Positions 14,452 through 21,487 of a stretch of 64,000 nt of DNA are shown in pieces. The DNA is taken from assembly GCA_003141895.1 (NCBI GenBank), contig PLNT01000007.1:225783-289782 (forward strand), given 5' to 3'. Position numbers and translations under genes: made by a program. The notes beneath the pieces are model-generated. The model saw only the letters and a list, made by a program, of their open reading frames with translations. It was not told the origin of the DNA and did no database searches. The DNA comes from Bacteroidales bacterium. Lineage in GTDB: Bacteria; Bacteroidota; Bacteroidia; Bacteroidales; VadinHA17. The stretch's first letter is position 1. Each line of letters begins with the position of its first letter.

Positions 14452-16326
14452 TCACAAAAATAGTCCCATCACCAGCACATCATCCACCTGCGTATTAGTC
14501 CCTTTCCAGCTGTCAAACTCCCTTTCAAGTTCTTTTTCCTGTTTTGACACCGGCAGATTATGTATTTTATTAAGGAATGCCTTCAATGTCGCATATTTGT
14601 ACTTTTTACCGTTCGGTCCCCCGAACTGATCGGCAAAACCATCAGAAAACATATAAACAACATCACCTGGCAAGGTTTCTATATCATGCCTTGTGAAATT
14701 TTCATCCGATCGCTCATAGATCCCTATTGGCATATGATCTGCACGATATTCAATTAGTTCATTATTCCGTATAAGATACAAATCATTATAAGCTCCCGAG
14801 TACTGAAGGGTCTTTGCCTTTTCATCAATAACACATAATGAAATATCCATTCCGTCCTTGGTCCCCTCCCCCCCTGTCTGGTGTAAAGCCCGTTGAATTT
14901 CGATCCTGAGCTCGGAAAGGATCTTATCACTCTCCAGAATTTCTCTCCTATTTACGATTTCTTCAAGGAATGATATTCCCAGCATGCTCATCAGCGCTCC
15001 GGGGACTCCATGACCTGTACAGTCACCGACAGCAATTATCAATTTCCCGTCAGTCTTTGTGAACCAGTAGAAATCACCGCTTACTATATCTTTTGGCAGA
15101 TAGAGTATGAAACACCTGTTATTCAGACCTTTTATTTCTTTTTGTTCAGGCAACAACGCCCTCTGAATTCGGCTCGCATAATTAATACTATCCGTTATAT
15201 CTTTATTTTTTTCTTCAATAATGTCATAGGCTTGCTTAAGCTCCACATGTCTCAACCTGTAAATCTCCTTTTCCTGCTCAGATTTTTCAATGGCATGTGC
15301 TACCTCAATGTTGCTTAACCTGCTGCGGGTTTCACTGCTCTGATACGAATCCTTCTCCTTCAGAAATTGCTTAAAGCTCTTTAGTGCCTTAGCCGGTTGG
15401 TGCGACAATTCATAATGGCTTGCAAGAGCGGAATGCACCTCTGCTAATAGCACTTGTGAATTGAGCTCTTTAGCCATTCTGAGGGACTCTGTCAGTCTTG
15501 CCTCAGCTTTTTCTGCGTTGCCGGTCTGATTACAAACTCTGCCCGAACCCATAAGAGCCTGCAGGACGCACCTCTTATCACTGCCGGTCATCGTTTGTTC
15601 ATAATAATCCAGAGACTCACGGTACATTTTCATGTCCTCGTATGTATTTGCTATTCCAAGGAGTGTCCATGGGATGGCCGAAACCTGTTTGTTCTCTTTC
15701 CTGATTTTAAGACTGCGGAAATAATAATCCAAAGCTTCCTCATATTTATAGGTTTGCCTCAACACCATACCTATCCTGTTAAGCGAAGAAGCAACTGCAT
15801 TTTCATCCTTAAGTTCCTCCCTGATCTTCAGACCTTTATTAAGATACTCAAGCGCTTTTGCGAAATCATTAAGTCTGGAATAGATAAGACCAAGCTGACT
15901 GCACGACTCTCCTTCCGACTCAATATCTTTTAAATCCTTTGAAACTTTATAAGCTTCAAGCCAGAGTGAAAGAGTCTTCTCGTAATCACCGAAGCTTTCG
16001 AAAATATTGCCCTTAAGAAGGATGGCCCTTGCATAACCTGATTCATCTTTATTATTTGCAAACCATTGAAATGCGTCTGTAAGATACCTCAAAGCAACTT
16101 CACTTTTTGATTGAAAGAAGTTGGCTGCAGCAATATTCAGTTTTGCATATGCCACTCCTCTTTCGTATTGGATTTTTTCAGCAGCTGAAAGATTTGAGGC
16201 AATATCTTTTTCACCGGCTTTTGAAATTGCATAACGACTATTCCACAATCTCAGGTTGGCTTCATCAATTTTTGATTCTCTTATGCCCGTCTTCTTCATT
16301 CGCAATTTTGAGTTTATTTTGTTCAT
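14452..16326 (-). CDS. TPR-containing SpoIIE-type PP2C serine phosphatase
   Basis: 624 residues. About 55-345 is a run of tetratricopeptide repeats (for example SQLGLIYSRLNDFAKALEYL and LNRIGMVLRQTYKYEEALDY). A short coiled coil (~355-390, KSEQEKEIYRLRHVELKQAY) joins the C-terminal PP2C-SIG domain, with PKDIVSGDFYWF, VGDCTGHGVPGALMSMLG and MFSDGFADQFGG holding the metal-binding aspartates. No signal peptide is seen; it should be cytosolic. Such proteins dephosphorylate anti-sigma-factor antagonists or other Ser-phosphoproteins in Bacteroidota. It is divergent from the HEPN-STAND-barrel operon with a 180-bp shared upstream region, which makes a regulatory link possible. Confidence 0.9.
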   Translation of the reverse strand: MNKINSKLRMKKTGIRESKIDEANLRLWNSRYAISKAGEKDIASNLSAAEKIQYERGVAYAKLNIAAANFFQSKSEVALRYLTDAFQWFANNKDESGYARAILLKGNIFESFGDYEKTLSLWLEAYKVSKDLKDIESEGESCSQLGLIYSRLNDFAKALEYLNKGLKIREELKDENAVASSLNRIGMVLRQTYKYEEALDYYFRSLKIRKENKQVSAIPWTLLGIANTYEDMKMYRESLDYYEQTMTGSDKRCVLQALMGSGRVCNQTGNAEKAEARLTESLRMAKELNSQVLLAEVHSALASHYELSHQPAKALKSFKQFLKEKDSYQSSETRSRLSNIEVAHAIEKSEQEKEIYRLRHVELKQAYDIIEEKNKDITDSINYASRIQRALLPEQKEIKGLNNRCFILYLPKDIVSGDFYWFTKTDGKLIIAVGDCTGHGVPGALMSMLGISFLEEIVNRREILESDKILSELRIEIQRALHQTGGEGTKDGMDISLCVIDEKAKTLQYSGAYNDLYLIRNNELIEYRADHMPIGIYERSDENFTRHDIETLPGDVVYMFSDGFADQFGGPNGKKYKYATLKAFLNKIHNLPVSKQEKELEREFDSWKGTNTQVDDVLVMGLFL

Positions 16327-16506: not shown

Positions 16507-17541
16507 ATGAATATTAATGAAGTTATGATCAGGAAGGTTTTTGATGAGATGGTTAAATATAAGCCGTCCCTTTCAAAAATGGTTATGTCGGACGATGAGG
16601 ATGAAGAAACATCTGATTACAGGATACTCGCTGATCTGATAATAAAGAACTTTCCCTGGCCCATAGGAGTTGAACTGAGAAGACTGTTCTCAGGATCGAT
16701 GCGGCAGCTTGACCGTATGAGACTCGATCAGATATTCAAGACTATCGAGCGTTCAATGCAATTCCTCTGTTTTGTAATGCTGGCTCAGGTAACAAAATCC
16801 AAACTGGAAGGTAAACTGACAATACCCGAAAACTTCAGCAAAGAATTTACAGGCAGATTTATGGTACTGAGCCTTGGCAACTTTTCATGGATGATAAGAG
16901 CCATAGGCAATCTTTTTCAGGATCAGAAAATCGAATGGTTTATGCCGGAAATGTCAGGATGCTTTGATAATAAGTTCTATGCTGCTCTCGATTTCTGGGT
17001 ACCTGAACGTAACGAGATCGGTCATTATCAGATCAATTTAACCCAGGAAGAAATAGAGAAAAGATGTGTTGAATATGAAGAGAAGCTGAGTTTTATCCTT
17101 GAAAGAATTTCTTTCCTTGCAAAATACAAACTGGTCTCGGTAAAAGAGATTAAAGTGATCAAGTCTAAAATAAAGGAAGCTTCATTCCATCATGTTTTTA
17201 ACCTTCTTAACAGCTCTGATTCCGATTTCAAGGCAAATGAGATTAATGAAGCAACATATACCGACAGCCATTCGGTGCTGCTGATGAAAAACATAAAAAC
17301 TATCGACGAATATCTTAATCTGTCTCCATTGATAATAGATACCAGTACGGAAGTTCTTGATACCAAAGAAAAGTTTGATATCAAAAAAGATATCTTCATG
17401 TACTCCAAGTTTCGCAATGACCAGCTGATGTACCTGGGAACTGAAGTTACAGAAAAGATTGACTTGCGATCGTTAAAAAACTATAAGGTGCTGTTGATGG
17501 AATTTAAACACCTGTTATCAACAATATCGGCTGAAACGTAA
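16507..17541 (+). CDS. HEPN-like protein with an R-x4-H motif, first gene of the STAND operon
   Basis: 344 residues, almost wholly helical, with no signal peptide or membrane segment. WVPERNEIGHYQ places R168-N-x3-H173 at a helix start, the arrangement that HEPN-superfamily RNases use (R followed by a polar residue, then His). The preceding ~90 residues (FKTIERSMQFLCFVMLAQVT onward) form the long helices expected of a HEPN bundle. A C-terminal ~130 residues (from about 210) look like a separate partner or effector-association domain. I do not recognise a named family. It ends 5 nt before the STAND NTPase start, so the two are surely co-expressed. It could be the catalytic effector of that NTPase; equally the motif may be coincidental and the protein an adaptor. 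Confidence 0.55.
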   Translation: MNINEVMIRKVFDEMVKYKPSLSKMVMSDDEDEETSDYRILADLIIKNFPWPIGVELRRLFSGSMRQLDRMRLDQIFKTIERSMQFLCFVMLAQVTKSKLEGKLTIPENFSKEFTGRFMVLSLGNFSWMIRAIGNLFQDQKIEWFMPEMSGCFDNKFYAALDFWVPERNEIGHYQINLTQEEIEKRCVEYEEKLSFILERISFLAKYKLVSVKEIKVIKSKIKEASFHHVFNLLNSSDSDFKANEINEATYTDSHSVLLMKNIKTIDEYLNLSPLIIDTSTEVLDTKEKFDIKKDIFMYSKFRNDQLMYLGTEVTEKIDLRSLKNYKVLLMEFKHLLSTISAET

Positions 17542-17546
17542 ATCAG

Positions 17547-20420
17547 ATGCAAAAGAGTCCATTCAAGTTTCTGGACAGCTATACGAAGGAGGACCGCGAT
17601 ATCTTTTTTGGACGTAATAAAGAGATAGAGGAACTTTATTCACGGGTTTTCGAAAGTAAAATCCTTGTCATCTATGGTATTTCAGGAACTGGTAAATCAT
17701 CTCTTATCAATTGTGGACTTGCAAATAAATTCAGTGATACCGACTGGTTGCCTGTTAATATCAGAAGAGGTACAAATATCAATCAGAGTCTTTTCGACGG
17801 TCTGGCCCGTTCGGCAGCTACTGGAGCCGGGACAAATATTGTAAAGGTTATCCGGTCGATATATCTTGACAACTTTAAACCTGTTTATCTCATTTTTGAC
17901 CAGTTCGAAGAGCTGTTTATTTTTGGCAGTAAAGAGGAAAAAGATGAACTTGTCAGCAACATAAGGAAGGTGATTGATTCAGATTTGCAATGCAGGTTCA
18001 TCTTTTCAATAAGGGAAGAATACCTTGCGGGTGTAACGGAATTTGAAAAAGTCATACCTTCTTTCCTTTCAAACAGGATAAGGATTGAAAAGATGACAAG
18101 GCAAAATGCCCTTGAAGTAATAGAGGGTCCGTGTCGTTTTAACAGGATTGTAGTTAATCCTGGTTTTCCGGAAGCGCTTCTTGCAAAACTTAATCCCGAC
18201 AACCCTGAAGTAGAATTAACCTATCTGCAGGTGTACCTTGATAAAGTTTTTCATATAGCATCCTCTGATGGTAAAGATCCTGAAAAACTTACTCTTGATC
18301 TGCTTGACAAGGCGGGAGATGTCAAGGACCTTCTCGGTACATTTCTTGAAGAACAAATAGCAAAGCTTGATGAGCCGGAAACAGGACTCGTAATCCTTAA
18401 ATCCTTCGTTTCGGTAAAAGGGACCAGGCAGCAGATCACAGAAGACGAGGTCATTGAATATTCAAAAACTCTTGGTAAAGATATTGAGAGGGAAACTGTT
18501 AAAAATCTGATCCAAAAGTTTATCGGATTAAGGATCCTGCGGGATAAAGACGAAAATGGAAGGTATGAGCTCCGGCATGACAGTCTTGCAACAAGAATCT
18601 ATGAAAAGATAAGCCTGGTTGAGAAAGAACTGCTCGAAATAAAGCAATTCATTGAAAATGCCTACCATAACTTTGAAAAAAGGCATTTATATCTTCCGGC
18701 TGAAGATCTTGAATACATTGCGCCATATGAGGGCAGATTATTTCTTAATGATAAAATTGCAAAGTTCATTTCCCAGAGTAAATGGGAAATACATAAAGCA
18801 AAACGCAGAAGGCAAAATGTACTTATATCTGCTGCAGTCATAATAATTACTGTCTTATCCTTTTTCACTATATGGGCTTTGAAAGAGAGAACCAATGCTA
18901 TCACCCAGAAGCAATTCGCCGATATACAAAAGAATTCTGCAATTAAGGCAAAGGAGGCGGCCGACTCTGCAAGCCGCGAAGCCTTTATTTCAAGAAATCT
19001 TGCCGTTGAAAAAGAAAATCTTGCGGTAACTGCTCAAAAACAATCTGAAGAAGACCGGAAAGAAGCCCTCTCACAGCGAAGTTTTGCCCTTGAGCAAAAG
19101 AACAGGGCGGAAAAACTTTCGGTTACTGCAAATGAGCAGGCCCAGCTTGCAAATAAAGAAAAACTGGCTGCAGAACGGGAAAGGTCAAAGGCTATTTTAG
19201 CAGAAGGAAAAGCCAGACAGCTTGGACTTCTCTCCACAGCCCAAAATCTGGCTCTGAAATCCTCATCTGTGGAAAAGAATACTGAACTGATGGGTTTGCT
19301 CGCTGTACAGGCTTTTGTTTTTAACAAGGAGAATGGAGGAAAAATGGAAGATCCTATTATCTGGGAAGCGTTAAATAATGCATGGTCAACTCTCGATAGC
19401 TCCCGTCATTCAGTATTCACGGGTTCTCCAAATGAAATATGGGCACTGGGAGAAAAAAACAATGGTTTATTAACGGCTGATCTCGATGGACAAATAAAAA
19501 TCTGGACTCCCGATGGCTCAGGTAAAATCTTCAGATCATTCCATTTCACATCTCCGGTAAATTTCGTTGCAAGCAATTCCACTGGCGATAAGATAATTAC
19601 CCAACATGATAATCTCGATCTGTTTTTATGGGCCTCAAAATCTTTTGATAACACCGATCCTTTTCCTGAAAAGCTCGAAGGGCATAAAGGACTTATCCGC
19701 ACTGTGGCATTTGACAATGACGCGAAAAGTATGGCAACTGCAGGCAGCGACAGCCTGATAATTATCTGGAATATCAGTCAGCAACCCACCGTGAAAACAG
19801 ATACAATAAAAACTCAGTCTTCAATAAAGGCAGTTGTTTTTACCGGTCCCGATACTGTTATCTCTGCAAGGGAGGATGGAACCATTATCCTGTCGGATAT
19901 TAAACAAGGAGTGAATACATCATTATATAACTCAGCTTCCGGGAAGCCACTTTGCCTCGCATGGAATAATAAAAAAAAAATGCTTTTTGCAGGGTGTTCT
20001 GACGGCAGCCTCATCGCAATTGATCTGAACAAAAATAAATCTTCAGAACCCGTCAGATATGCCATACATTCTGCAGGGATTGATCTTATTACTTTCAATT
20101 CCGATTTTTCACTTCTTGCAACATCCGGCTGGGATAAAACAATCAGGTTTTACAATTATCATGAATTTTTTGACCTGGGAAATACAGTCGGTGGTGTCGA
20201 AAATATTAAAAATCTTAACCAGAGAACCAGATCATTGATCTTTACTGATGATAACAAATTGGTGGCAGGCTTATCAGATAAAAGCATAAGAGTGTGGGAA
20301 ACATCTTCTACGAAGCTCTCTTCGATGATCTGTGACCGGATAAAAAGAGATTTGACAGTTAAGGAGTGGAATGACATGGTTGGACCAGATATACCTTATG
20401 AAAAGACCTGTGGCAAATGA
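17547..20420 (+). CDS. Membrane-anchored nSTAND1-type NTPase with coiled coil and WD40 repeats
   Basis: 957 residues. FFGRNKEIEEL at 20-30, Walker A GISGTGKSS (44-52), Walker B LIFDQFEELF (114-123), sensor-like SIREEYL (154-160) and a winged-helix ending LRHDSLATRIYE (342-352) define a STAND NTPase of the novel-STAND-1 type. After the basic stretch HKAKRRRQ comes a single transmembrane helix (~424-444), then a ~110-residue Ala/Glu/Lys/Gln coiled coil (447-560), and from ~620 to 945 WD40-like blades (for example GQIKIW, SLIIIWN, KSIRVWE). Positive-inside topology puts the NTPase in the cytoplasm and the coiled coil plus propeller in the periplasm. The stop overlaps the next ATG by 4 nt. STAND proteins are ligand-triggered switches; here the sensor would face the periplasm. 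Confidence 0.85.
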   Translation: MQKSPFKFLDSYTKEDRDIFFGRNKEIEELYSRVFESKILVIYGISGTGKSSLINCGLANKFSDTDWLPVNIRRGTNINQSLFDGLARSAATGAGTNIVKVIRSIYLDNFKPVYLIFDQFEELFIFGSKEEKDELVSNIRKVIDSDLQCRFIFSIREEYLAGVTEFEKVIPSFLSNRIRIEKMTRQNALEVIEGPCRFNRIVVNPGFPEALLAKLNPDNPEVELTYLQVYLDKVFHIASSDGKDPEKLTLDLLDKAGDVKDLLGTFLEEQIAKLDEPETGLVILKSFVSVKGTRQQITEDEVIEYSKTLGKDIERETVKNLIQKFIGLRILRDKDENGRYELRHDSLATRIYEKISLVEKELLEIKQFIENAYHNFEKRHLYLPAEDLEYIAPYEGRLFLNDKIAKFISQSKWEIHKAKRRRQNVLISAAVIIITVLSFFTIWALKERTNAITQKQFADIQKNSAIKAKEAADSASREAFISRNLAVEKENLAVTAQKQSEEDRKEALSQRSFALEQKNRAEKLSVTANEQAQLANKEKLAAERERSKAILAEGKARQLGLLSTAQNLALKSSSVEKNTELMGLLAVQAFVFNKENGGKMEDPIIWEALNNAWSTLDSSRHSVFTGSPNEIWALGEKNNGLLTADLDGQIKIWTPDGSGKIFRSFHFTSPVNFVASNSTGDKIITQHDNLDLFLWASKSFDNTDPFPEKLEGHKGLIRTVAFDNDAKSMATAGSDSLIIIWNISQQPTVKTDTIKTQSSIKAVVFTGPDTVISAREDGTIILSDIKQGVNTSLYNSASGKPLCLAWNNKKKMLFAGCSDGSLIAIDLNKNKSSEPVRYAIHSAGIDLITFNSDFSLLATSGWDKTIRFYNYHEFFDLGNTVGGVENIKNLNQRTRSLIFTDDNKLVAGLSDKSIRVWETSSTKLSSMICDRIKRDLTVKEWNDMVGPDIPYEKTCGK

Positions 20421-21487
20421 TCAGGAATATTAGTTTAATATTAATGTTTCTGTTTAGCTGTTCCCTTGTTCAGGGACAGAAAACAGTTAAGCCGGTAAAG
20501 AATGATCAGGCATGCTCTGATATTATTAAAGAGGCAGACAGGTTATTCCCGGAGGGACATTATGACAGATGTATAACTGATTTGGAAGAAGTGATGAAAT
20601 CATGTGATCTTTCACGAGGCGAAAAAGAACATTCTCTTGAACTTCTTGCTAAAGCTTATGTTGAAACTGGCGACATTGGAAAAGCTGACGCAACGGTTAA
20701 TATTTTGCTTAAAGGGTTCCCTCATTACGAGCTAAAAGAGGCTGATAATTCTGAGGTATTTAACCGCCTTATAAAGAAATATAAAATTCATCCAAAGTTT
20801 TCAATAGGAATAAGAAATACAGCTGATTGGCTTCATTATACAACAACCAAAGTCTACTCGGTACTCGATGGGCTCAATTATACTGCACCTTATGTTTTGA
20901 AAGGCTATGGATTCATGTATTATGGTTGGGCAGAATTTGAATTTGATAAGGACATTTCTGTAAATGCAGAACTTATCTGGAGAATAACAAGATATGGGAG
21001 AGATATCCAATCCAAGGTTCCGGAAATAGGTTTCACTGGCTTTTCTGAAAATGATTCTTATATTCAGGTTCCTCTTTATCTTAGGAAGTACTATCATGTC
21101 GGACAAAATATCATCCCCTATTTTTCTGCCGGGATTACATATTTATATATGACTCAGGCACTGGGAACTGCCTCAATCTTTCATACTAAGGAAAATATCC
21201 TGACACGATCAGACAACAAGAACATGCTTGACATGAGAAACAGGAACACTTTTGAGTGGATTGCTGGTGCAGGGATTGGATACAAACTCAAAAATCTGCG
21301 TCTCTTTCTTGATATGAGGTATTATGGCGGATTGAATAGTTTTACAAATTCATCAAAACGGCTGAGCAACCAGGATCTGGTAGATAATTACTACTATGTT
21401 GATAACTCAGTAACACTGAATCAGTTTGAGATTGGGGCTTCAATTTCATATACTCTTTTTAATTCTGTGAAGAGAGTGAAACGTTAG
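20417..21487 (+). CDS. Outer-membrane beta-barrel protein with N-terminal TPR-like helices
   Basis: 356 residues. A Sec signal peptide (MIRNISLILMFLFSCSLVQG; the internal Cys is followed by S-L-V and is unlikely to be a lipobox) precedes about 90 helical TPR-like residues (EADRLFPEGHYDRCITDLEE, LLAKAYVETGDIGKA). From ~135 to the end alternating strands appear with aromatic girdles (GYGFMYYGWAEFEF, YIQVPLYLRKYYHV, PYFSAGITYLYM), ending SISYTLFNSVKRVKR like an 8- to 10-stranded barrel. Coupled by ATGA overlap to the STAND gene, it likely gives that system an outer-membrane partner, with the periplasmic TPR part meeting the WD40 domain. Confidence 0.75.
   Translation: MIRNISLILMFLFSCSLVQGQKTVKPVKNDQACSDIIKEADRLFPEGHYDRCITDLEEVMKSCDLSRGEKEHSLELLAKAYVETGDIGKADATVNILLKGFPHYELKEADNSEVFNRLIKKYKIHPKFSIGIRNTADWLHYTTTKVYSVLDGLNYTAPYVLKGYGFMYYGWAEFEFDKDISVNAELIWRITRYGRDIQSKVPEIGFTGFSENDSYIQVPLYLRKYYHVGQNIIPYFSAGITYLYMTQALGTASIFHTKENILTRSDNKNMLDMRNRNTFEWIAGAGIGYKLKNLRLFLDMRYYGGLNSFTNSSKRLSNQDLVDNYYYVDNSVTLNQFEIGASISYTLFNSVKRVKR

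Follow-up and report, generated by a model that had tools for sequence, protein, structure and literature searches.

A candidate membrane-anchored STAND receptor with a putative HEPN-like ribonuclease effector in trans in Bacteroidota

Avs proteins are soluble, and to our knowledge the bacterial STAND immune receptors that have been studied experimentally are all cytoplasmic. The effectors of Avs are fused N-terminally (PMC10907252), and the EACC1 system consists of two genes, the 5' one with one conserved TM helix in its product and the 3' one with a caspase (PMC7159879). PMC3710099 also mentions bacterial proteins that carry HEPN and STAND modules at the N-terminus. We found no description of the gene pair analysed here, gene 1 and gene 2, in PMC8195603, PMC7159879, PMC10907252 and PMC3710099, though their supplements or other papers may list it.

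The pair comes from a Bacteroidales bacterium (VadinHA17; assembly GCA_003141895.1, contig PLNT01000007.1, positions 225,783-289,782 of the forward strand). This whole stretch of 64,000 nt is called the window below, and L-numbers (e.g. L048) label loci, i.e. the stretches around family matches. Three genes are of concern:

16507-17541, + strand: gene 1, 344 aa, standalone HEPN-like protein, predicted effector (open reading frame and alignment)
17547-20420, + strand: gene 2, 957 aa, nSTAND1-TM-coiled coil-WD40 protein (Pfam and hydropathy)
20417-21487, + strand: gene 3, 356 aa, outer-membrane beta-barrel protein with a signal peptide-like N-terminus (PF13568)

All three genes are on the same strand, genes 1 and 2 being separated by 5 nt and genes 2 and 3 overlapping by 4 nt, so the coupled spacing reported by the first-pass annotation is borne out. 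Its broader proposal, a three-gene envelope system, came through the tests designed to refute it mostly favourably, but is not supported for the three genes as one fixed unit. By Pfam, the neighbourhood comprises genes for a TPR-SpoIIE protein, the nSTAND1 and barrel proteins, and an ABC transporter. The TPR-SpoIIE gene (window 14452-16326) is divergent, lies upstream and resembles SiaA; a 62% homologue of it is found near the gene-1 locus L029. With slightly better than even confidence, we read genes 1 and 2 as a membrane-anchored STAND receptor whose HEPN ribonuclease effector is supplied in trans.

For the comparison among relatives, we collected 75 different open frames of the gene-1 family from the stretches around hits and from the loci of a contig scan. 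With at least 180 aligned residues and the window included, 65 rows were counted, 45 of them standalone and 20 fused to further sequence. Those omitted are short (L034, L083-L086, L158, L159 and one L141 piece, all with fewer than 180 aligned residues) or distant (L157, L161, L162, with RN..GHG motifs). L157, L159, L161 and L162 are large proteins with weak similarity to gene 1 and motifs of the RN..GHG type, and L157 matches the PADLOC Avs2 model (8.7e-12).

Gene 1 and a STAND gene are found together in most cases. Of the 44 standalone relatives, 35 are followed on their own strand by a gene-2-like STAND no more than 1200 bases away (22 with a gap of at most 60), as are 19 of the 20 fused members (16 with such a gap), the remaining one ending at its contig. 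Of the nine standalone exceptions, L058 and L060 are at contig ends, L026 has a second gene 1 between gene 1 and the STAND, L063 has its STAND one gene further, and in L019/L056 the STAND is 5 kb away, which leaves L059, L062, L139 and L144 (a broken gene), where no STAND was found near gene 1. Similarly, a close gene-2-like STAND (E<=1e-30) is present in every one of the six related genomes in which gene 1 is near full-length; the others of the 60 related genomes are 4 with a STAND and no gene 1, 3 with gene-1 fragments and no STAND, and 47 with neither (Fisher p 2.9e-4, relatedness ignored, a generous value since the genomes are mostly of one genus). The expected co-occurrence of gene 1 with the STAND is thus supported. 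L024 and L026 contain a tandem pair of gene-1 copies ahead of a single STAND.

On the other hand, STANDs do occur alone. The window genome encodes another close STAND of 1372 aa, which has WD40 and a membrane helix at 433 but no gene 1 next to it. A less closely related nSTAND1 protein of this genome likewise combines a membrane helix with propeller-like repeats. STAND-TM-WD40 as such is therefore not special to this system. Since one gene 1 is also accompanied by two STANDs in L019, L021, L025 and L030, one effector may serve several sensors. An orphan close STAND of about 1375 aa is found with similar neighbours in three genomes (L178, L180, L181), two of them without gene 1, as if it were vertically inherited.

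The features of gene 2 are as follows:

17559-18596, + strand: nSTAND1 NTPase domain, residues 5-350 (PF20703, E 7.8e-39)
18819-18875, + strand: single membrane helix, residues 425-443 (hydropathy 2.53)
18885-19226, + strand: charged stretch, probably coiled-coil, residues 447-560 (judged by eye)
19383-20327, + strand: WD40 repeats at about residues 613-927, predicted to be periplasmic (WD40 and propeller models of Pfam)

PF20703 scores 134.8 bits on gene 2 against a cut-off of 27.1, and together with the Walker A motif (GISGTGKSS at 44-52) this places the protein among the nSTAND1 NTPases. This motif, the Walker B region (PVYLIFDQFEEL, beginning at 112), the one TM helix at 425-443 by simple hydropathy, and the WD40 blades with Pfam WD40-type matches were all called earlier and are recovered here; for the coiled coil called at 447-560, the charged stretch is present and the coiled-coil assignment is by eye. 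The membrane helix is preceded by KAKRRR, with 6 K/R on the NTPase side against 3 on the other, so hydropathy and charge back the suggested inner-membrane topology, in which the NTPase side is predicted to be cytoplasmic. The same signal extends to the relatives: by simple hydropathy rather than a trained predictor, 36 of the 41 complete partner STANDs of at least 500 aa have a membrane helix at 380-520, and all 36 carry more K/R within 15 residues on the NTPase side. The other five are three second halves of split STANDs, one double STAND, and one with no helix. In partner STANDs the nSTAND1 profile starts at residue 4-8 (n=16 Pfam-scanned, window included), or at 22-33 in the exceptions L064, L068 and L069, so that no room is left for a preceding effector domain.

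Beyond the helix, the partner STANDs are variable. Pfam scans of 15 further partner proteins, gene 2 aside, gave as matches over the cut-off WD40 in L020, L021, L025, L064 and L081, GldM_3rd in L023 and L063, FGE-sulfatase in L065, and LRR in L075. Below the cut-off are TPR in L068 and L069 and WD40 in L156, and L070, L151 and L160 show no Pfam match in this part. L065 has an additional, separate GldM_3rd-4th gene. As the solved structures of GldM cover its periplasmic part (title of 6ey4), the GldM_3rd ectodomains fit the predicted topology.

Gene 3 is related to only part of this variety. The barrel claimed for it is supported by OMP_b-brl_2 (PF13568) at 162-310 (E 4.7e-8), and its hydrophobic stretch 1-19 fits the predicted signal peptide by hydropathy; the TPR-like helices are represented by weak matches far below cut-off (BamD 2e-4, TssQ 0.023). 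A gene-3 homologue follows 11 of the 14 STANDs with the gene-2-type ectodomain (match of at least 300 residues) and 1 of 30 others, or 9 of 11 versus 1 of 28 after five duplicate loci are removed. Gene 3 thus accompanies just one WD40 ectodomain subtype; it is rejected as part of the core of the system and not supported as a fixed component. The remaining case is the CHAT-type locus L145, where gene 3 is matched weakly (21%) and the ectodomain over a short length. This hints that the barrel and the ectodomain may move as a pair when the effector is exchanged.

In gene 1, we consider three features:

16612-17148, + strand: helical domain with HEPN-like fold, residues 36-214 (AlphaFold2 pLDDT 74.6)
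17008-17025, + strand: RNEIGH, R168-x4-H173, putative RNase active site (conserved R and H)
17131-17538, + strand: C-terminal part, residues 209-344 (alignment, LNLxPLxI region)

The HEPN motif is given in PMC3710099 as Rx4-6H with a polar residue after R. RNEIGH, which begins with R168 and ends with H173 as had been claimed, has this form. Since R[NDH]xxxH arises by chance in 2.55% of 2000 gene-1 shuffles, it is the conservation among relatives, not the rarity within one sequence, that bears the weight. In the gene-1 alignment of 28 rows (23 different, 42-77% identity to gene 1), N directly follows R in all rows, and 27 rows retain both R168 and H173. The exception is L006; in L006/L082, a standalone copy adjoining an intact STAND, K and R replace R and H. 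The Rx4H pair is retained in L048/L049, which are 29-30% identical to gene 1. Conservation of the pair differs between the types of member: it is present in 44 of the 45 standalone members (window included) and in none of the 20 fused ones (Fisher p 7e-16, relatedness ignored).

What the fused members carry instead is mostly a recognizable effector domain. There are 11 with CHAT, 3 with C14 caspase, 1 with TIR and 1 with a PDC-S60-like domain, besides 3 with an N-terminal extension (one of these, L074, comes from a broken gene, of which it is a piece) and 1 in which the domain stands behind STAND domains. Pfam confirmed CHAT in all 6 tested, C14 in both tested, and TIR_2 at 1.2e-18, and the rest of the CHAT and C14 labels were assigned by eye. 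The N-terminus of L036/L075 matches PADLOC PDC-S60 at 8.6e-9 with no Pfam hit, and is presumably DUF4062. Peptidase_C14, CHAT or TIR_2 is thus carried by gene-1 relatives that occupy the same gene position, and caspase, CHAT and TIR domains are among the conflict-system effectors named in PMC8195603, PMC7159879 and PMC10907252. Fused and standalone members should not be counted as independent events: in a maximum-likelihood tree (quick method), with many weak inner branches and long branches that meet, the standalone/fused state changes 2 times and the motif 3 times, which yields just 1-2 independent pairs. Motif loss with effector gain is therefore a clear pattern, not a replicated test.

Two further arrangements were observed. 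In L052, L053 and L150 a short motif of the NxNIVIQxVxxSxITINV type precedes the gene-1 domain. At L149:2508-8774 a CHAT-type gene is followed by a protein in which two nSTAND1-like stretches are fused with a second gene-1-like domain, and then by another STAND, which we regard as a compacted version of the system. The C-terminal part of gene 1 is conserved across both standalone and fused members, and is possibly a module for coupling to the STAND.

The fused members also lend some weight to the reading that gene 1 derives from HEPN but is catalytically idle, serving as an adaptor that links the STAND to something else, as the domain seems to do in these fused members; the real effector would be another protein or the membrane itself. 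Their keeping of the domain without R/H (0/20) suggests that it is useful without catalysis, L006/L082 is a standalone copy lacking the pair, and motif-less HEPN domains may act non-catalytically according to PMC3710099. But retention of R and H in nearly every standalone member, to about 30% identity, would be hard to explain if the pair were functionless, and we regard an idle gene 1 as unlikely.

About the same low probability is given to a housekeeping module of Bacteroidota for envelope stress or signalling rather than immunity, in which the STAND monitors the condition of the envelope and RNA or translation is adjusted through gene 1. In favour of it, gene 1 is well conserved, unlike fast-evolving defence effectors: the contig scan gave 20 loci with 60-79% identity in Bacteroidales, Cyclobacteriaceae and other Bacteroidota genomes. 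In addition, no gene-1 relatives were found in viral contigs or in phage and plasmid collections. Against it, the distribution is patchy, with matches in 9 of the 60 related genomes (6 near full-length, 3 fragments only), and profile hits in 18/393 genomes of the order and 2/395 of the phylum; a broader profile found 20/393 of the order and 16/395 of the class. There are tandem and fragmentary gene-1 copies, and the variability of the sensors and the exchange of killer domains resemble conflict systems. The fragments (L085, L086/L185, L087, in genomes without STAND match) are apparent remnants of decayed copies.

As for the fold, gene 1 has no hit to Pfam, NCBIfam or PADLOC models at E<=1, and its best match among the sequences of solved structures has only E 0.89. 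In the full-length model, the C-terminal half is poor and HEPN rows are mixed among unrelated helical bundles. For a domain-only AlphaFold2 model (36-214), HEPN structures top both the Foldseek and the VIA lists. The first 11 Foldseek rows are all HEPN chains, from only two proteins (HepT, YutE), and the first 13 VIA rows are HEPN, from about eight proteins by title, with the lower HEPN rows tied with (within 1 of) unrelated rows. The Foldseek E is never below 0.18 for either model, and the RNEIGH stretch is modelled with middling confidence (block mean 63). With hhalign, gene-1 profiles against 10 single HEPN proteins showed no separation from 150 neighbour-protein controls. In distant relatives, L049 is touched by HEPN_RiboL-PSP (5.6e-4; L048 at 0.016) and HEPN_Apea (1.4e-3), both Pfam models below cut-off, and by a Cas13a model (9.6e-5). 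The HEPN fold proposed at first is hence favoured by the domain-only model, with an ambiguous full-length model and no hhalign signal on the other side, and the similarity of the gene-1 domain to the HEPN fold is moderate. That gene 1 is instead a generic helical bundle with a structural RNEIGH is the least probable reading, for although Foldseek E values above 0.1 throughout, the middling Z that helical bundles reach by chance in VIA, and the lack of profile or hhalign signal agree with it, the HEPN chains leading both lists and the N after R in every alignment row, the polar residue of PMC3710099, do not.

HEPN active sites form in dimers. Under the receptor-effector reading, gene 2 would sit in the inner membrane with its NTPase inside, while the coiled coil and the WD40 ectodomain would reach into the periplasm, close to the gene-3 outer-membrane barrel. 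An envelope ligand or disturbance, such as phage adsorption, outer-membrane damage or non-kin contact, would release the NTPase, whose oligomerisation may bring gene-1 protomers together; these, once assembled, would cleave RNA, and growth stop or cell death would result, in a presumed role in defence or kin recognition. More tentatively, and with well under even confidence, the family may represent a modular class of transmembrane immune receptors of Bacteroidota, composed of barrel, periplasmic propeller, inner-membrane STAND and cytoplasmic RNase, in which one effector serves several sensors and the HEPN RNase became an inactive adaptor in members onto which caspase, CHAT or TIR was grafted. 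If true, a periplasm-facing STAND with a separate, exchangeable effector would give bacteria an equivalent of transmembrane immune receptors, and phage could be sensed at the envelope, ahead of DNA entry. The gene-1 family would also be a place to ask how an enzyme becomes an adaptor.

Membership in described systems was considered and rejected for three of them. EACC1 itself spans the membrane, whereas gene 1 lacks a membrane helix (of the 44 standalone relatives, only L023 and L030 show a borderline hydropathy segment, at 195-214), and gene 2 has no caspase match. For Avs, genes 1-3 have no PADLOC match at E<=1, and nSTAND1 starts at residue 5. For HEPN-MNT toxin-antitoxin systems, the gene-1 neighbours include no nucleotidyltransferase gene.

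Overall, the locus shares the NTPase switch with the NTP-dependent conflict systems of Kaur, Aravind and colleagues (nSTAND1 is named in PMC8195603). These, the EACC1, ternary and EAD-coupled systems, likewise have exchangeable effectors (caspase, TIR), often in a neighbouring gene, and exchangeable sensors (FGS, superstructure-forming repeats). Unlike in those, what stays constant in this family is a HEPN-like domain able to carry the active-site motif, and the gene-2 membrane helix comes right behind the NTPase, with no room for an N-terminal EAD, the small adaptor domain on effector and NTPase (just 4 residues precede nSTAND1). With Avs and other antiviral STANDs it has the STAND switch and a C-terminal sensor in common, while its predicted effector is in trans and its sensor is predicted beyond the inner membrane. 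With HepT-MntA and Csm6, the HEPN toxins and RNases, it has the Rx4H motif and a predicted HEPN-like fold in common, but an adjoining nucleotidyltransferase gene and a CARF domain were not found, and the link is to a STAND NTPase instead. The logic of HEPN plus STAND is also that of the proteins mentioned in PMC3710099; here it would be divided between two genes, and a membrane helix and an ectodomain predicted to lie in the periplasm are added.
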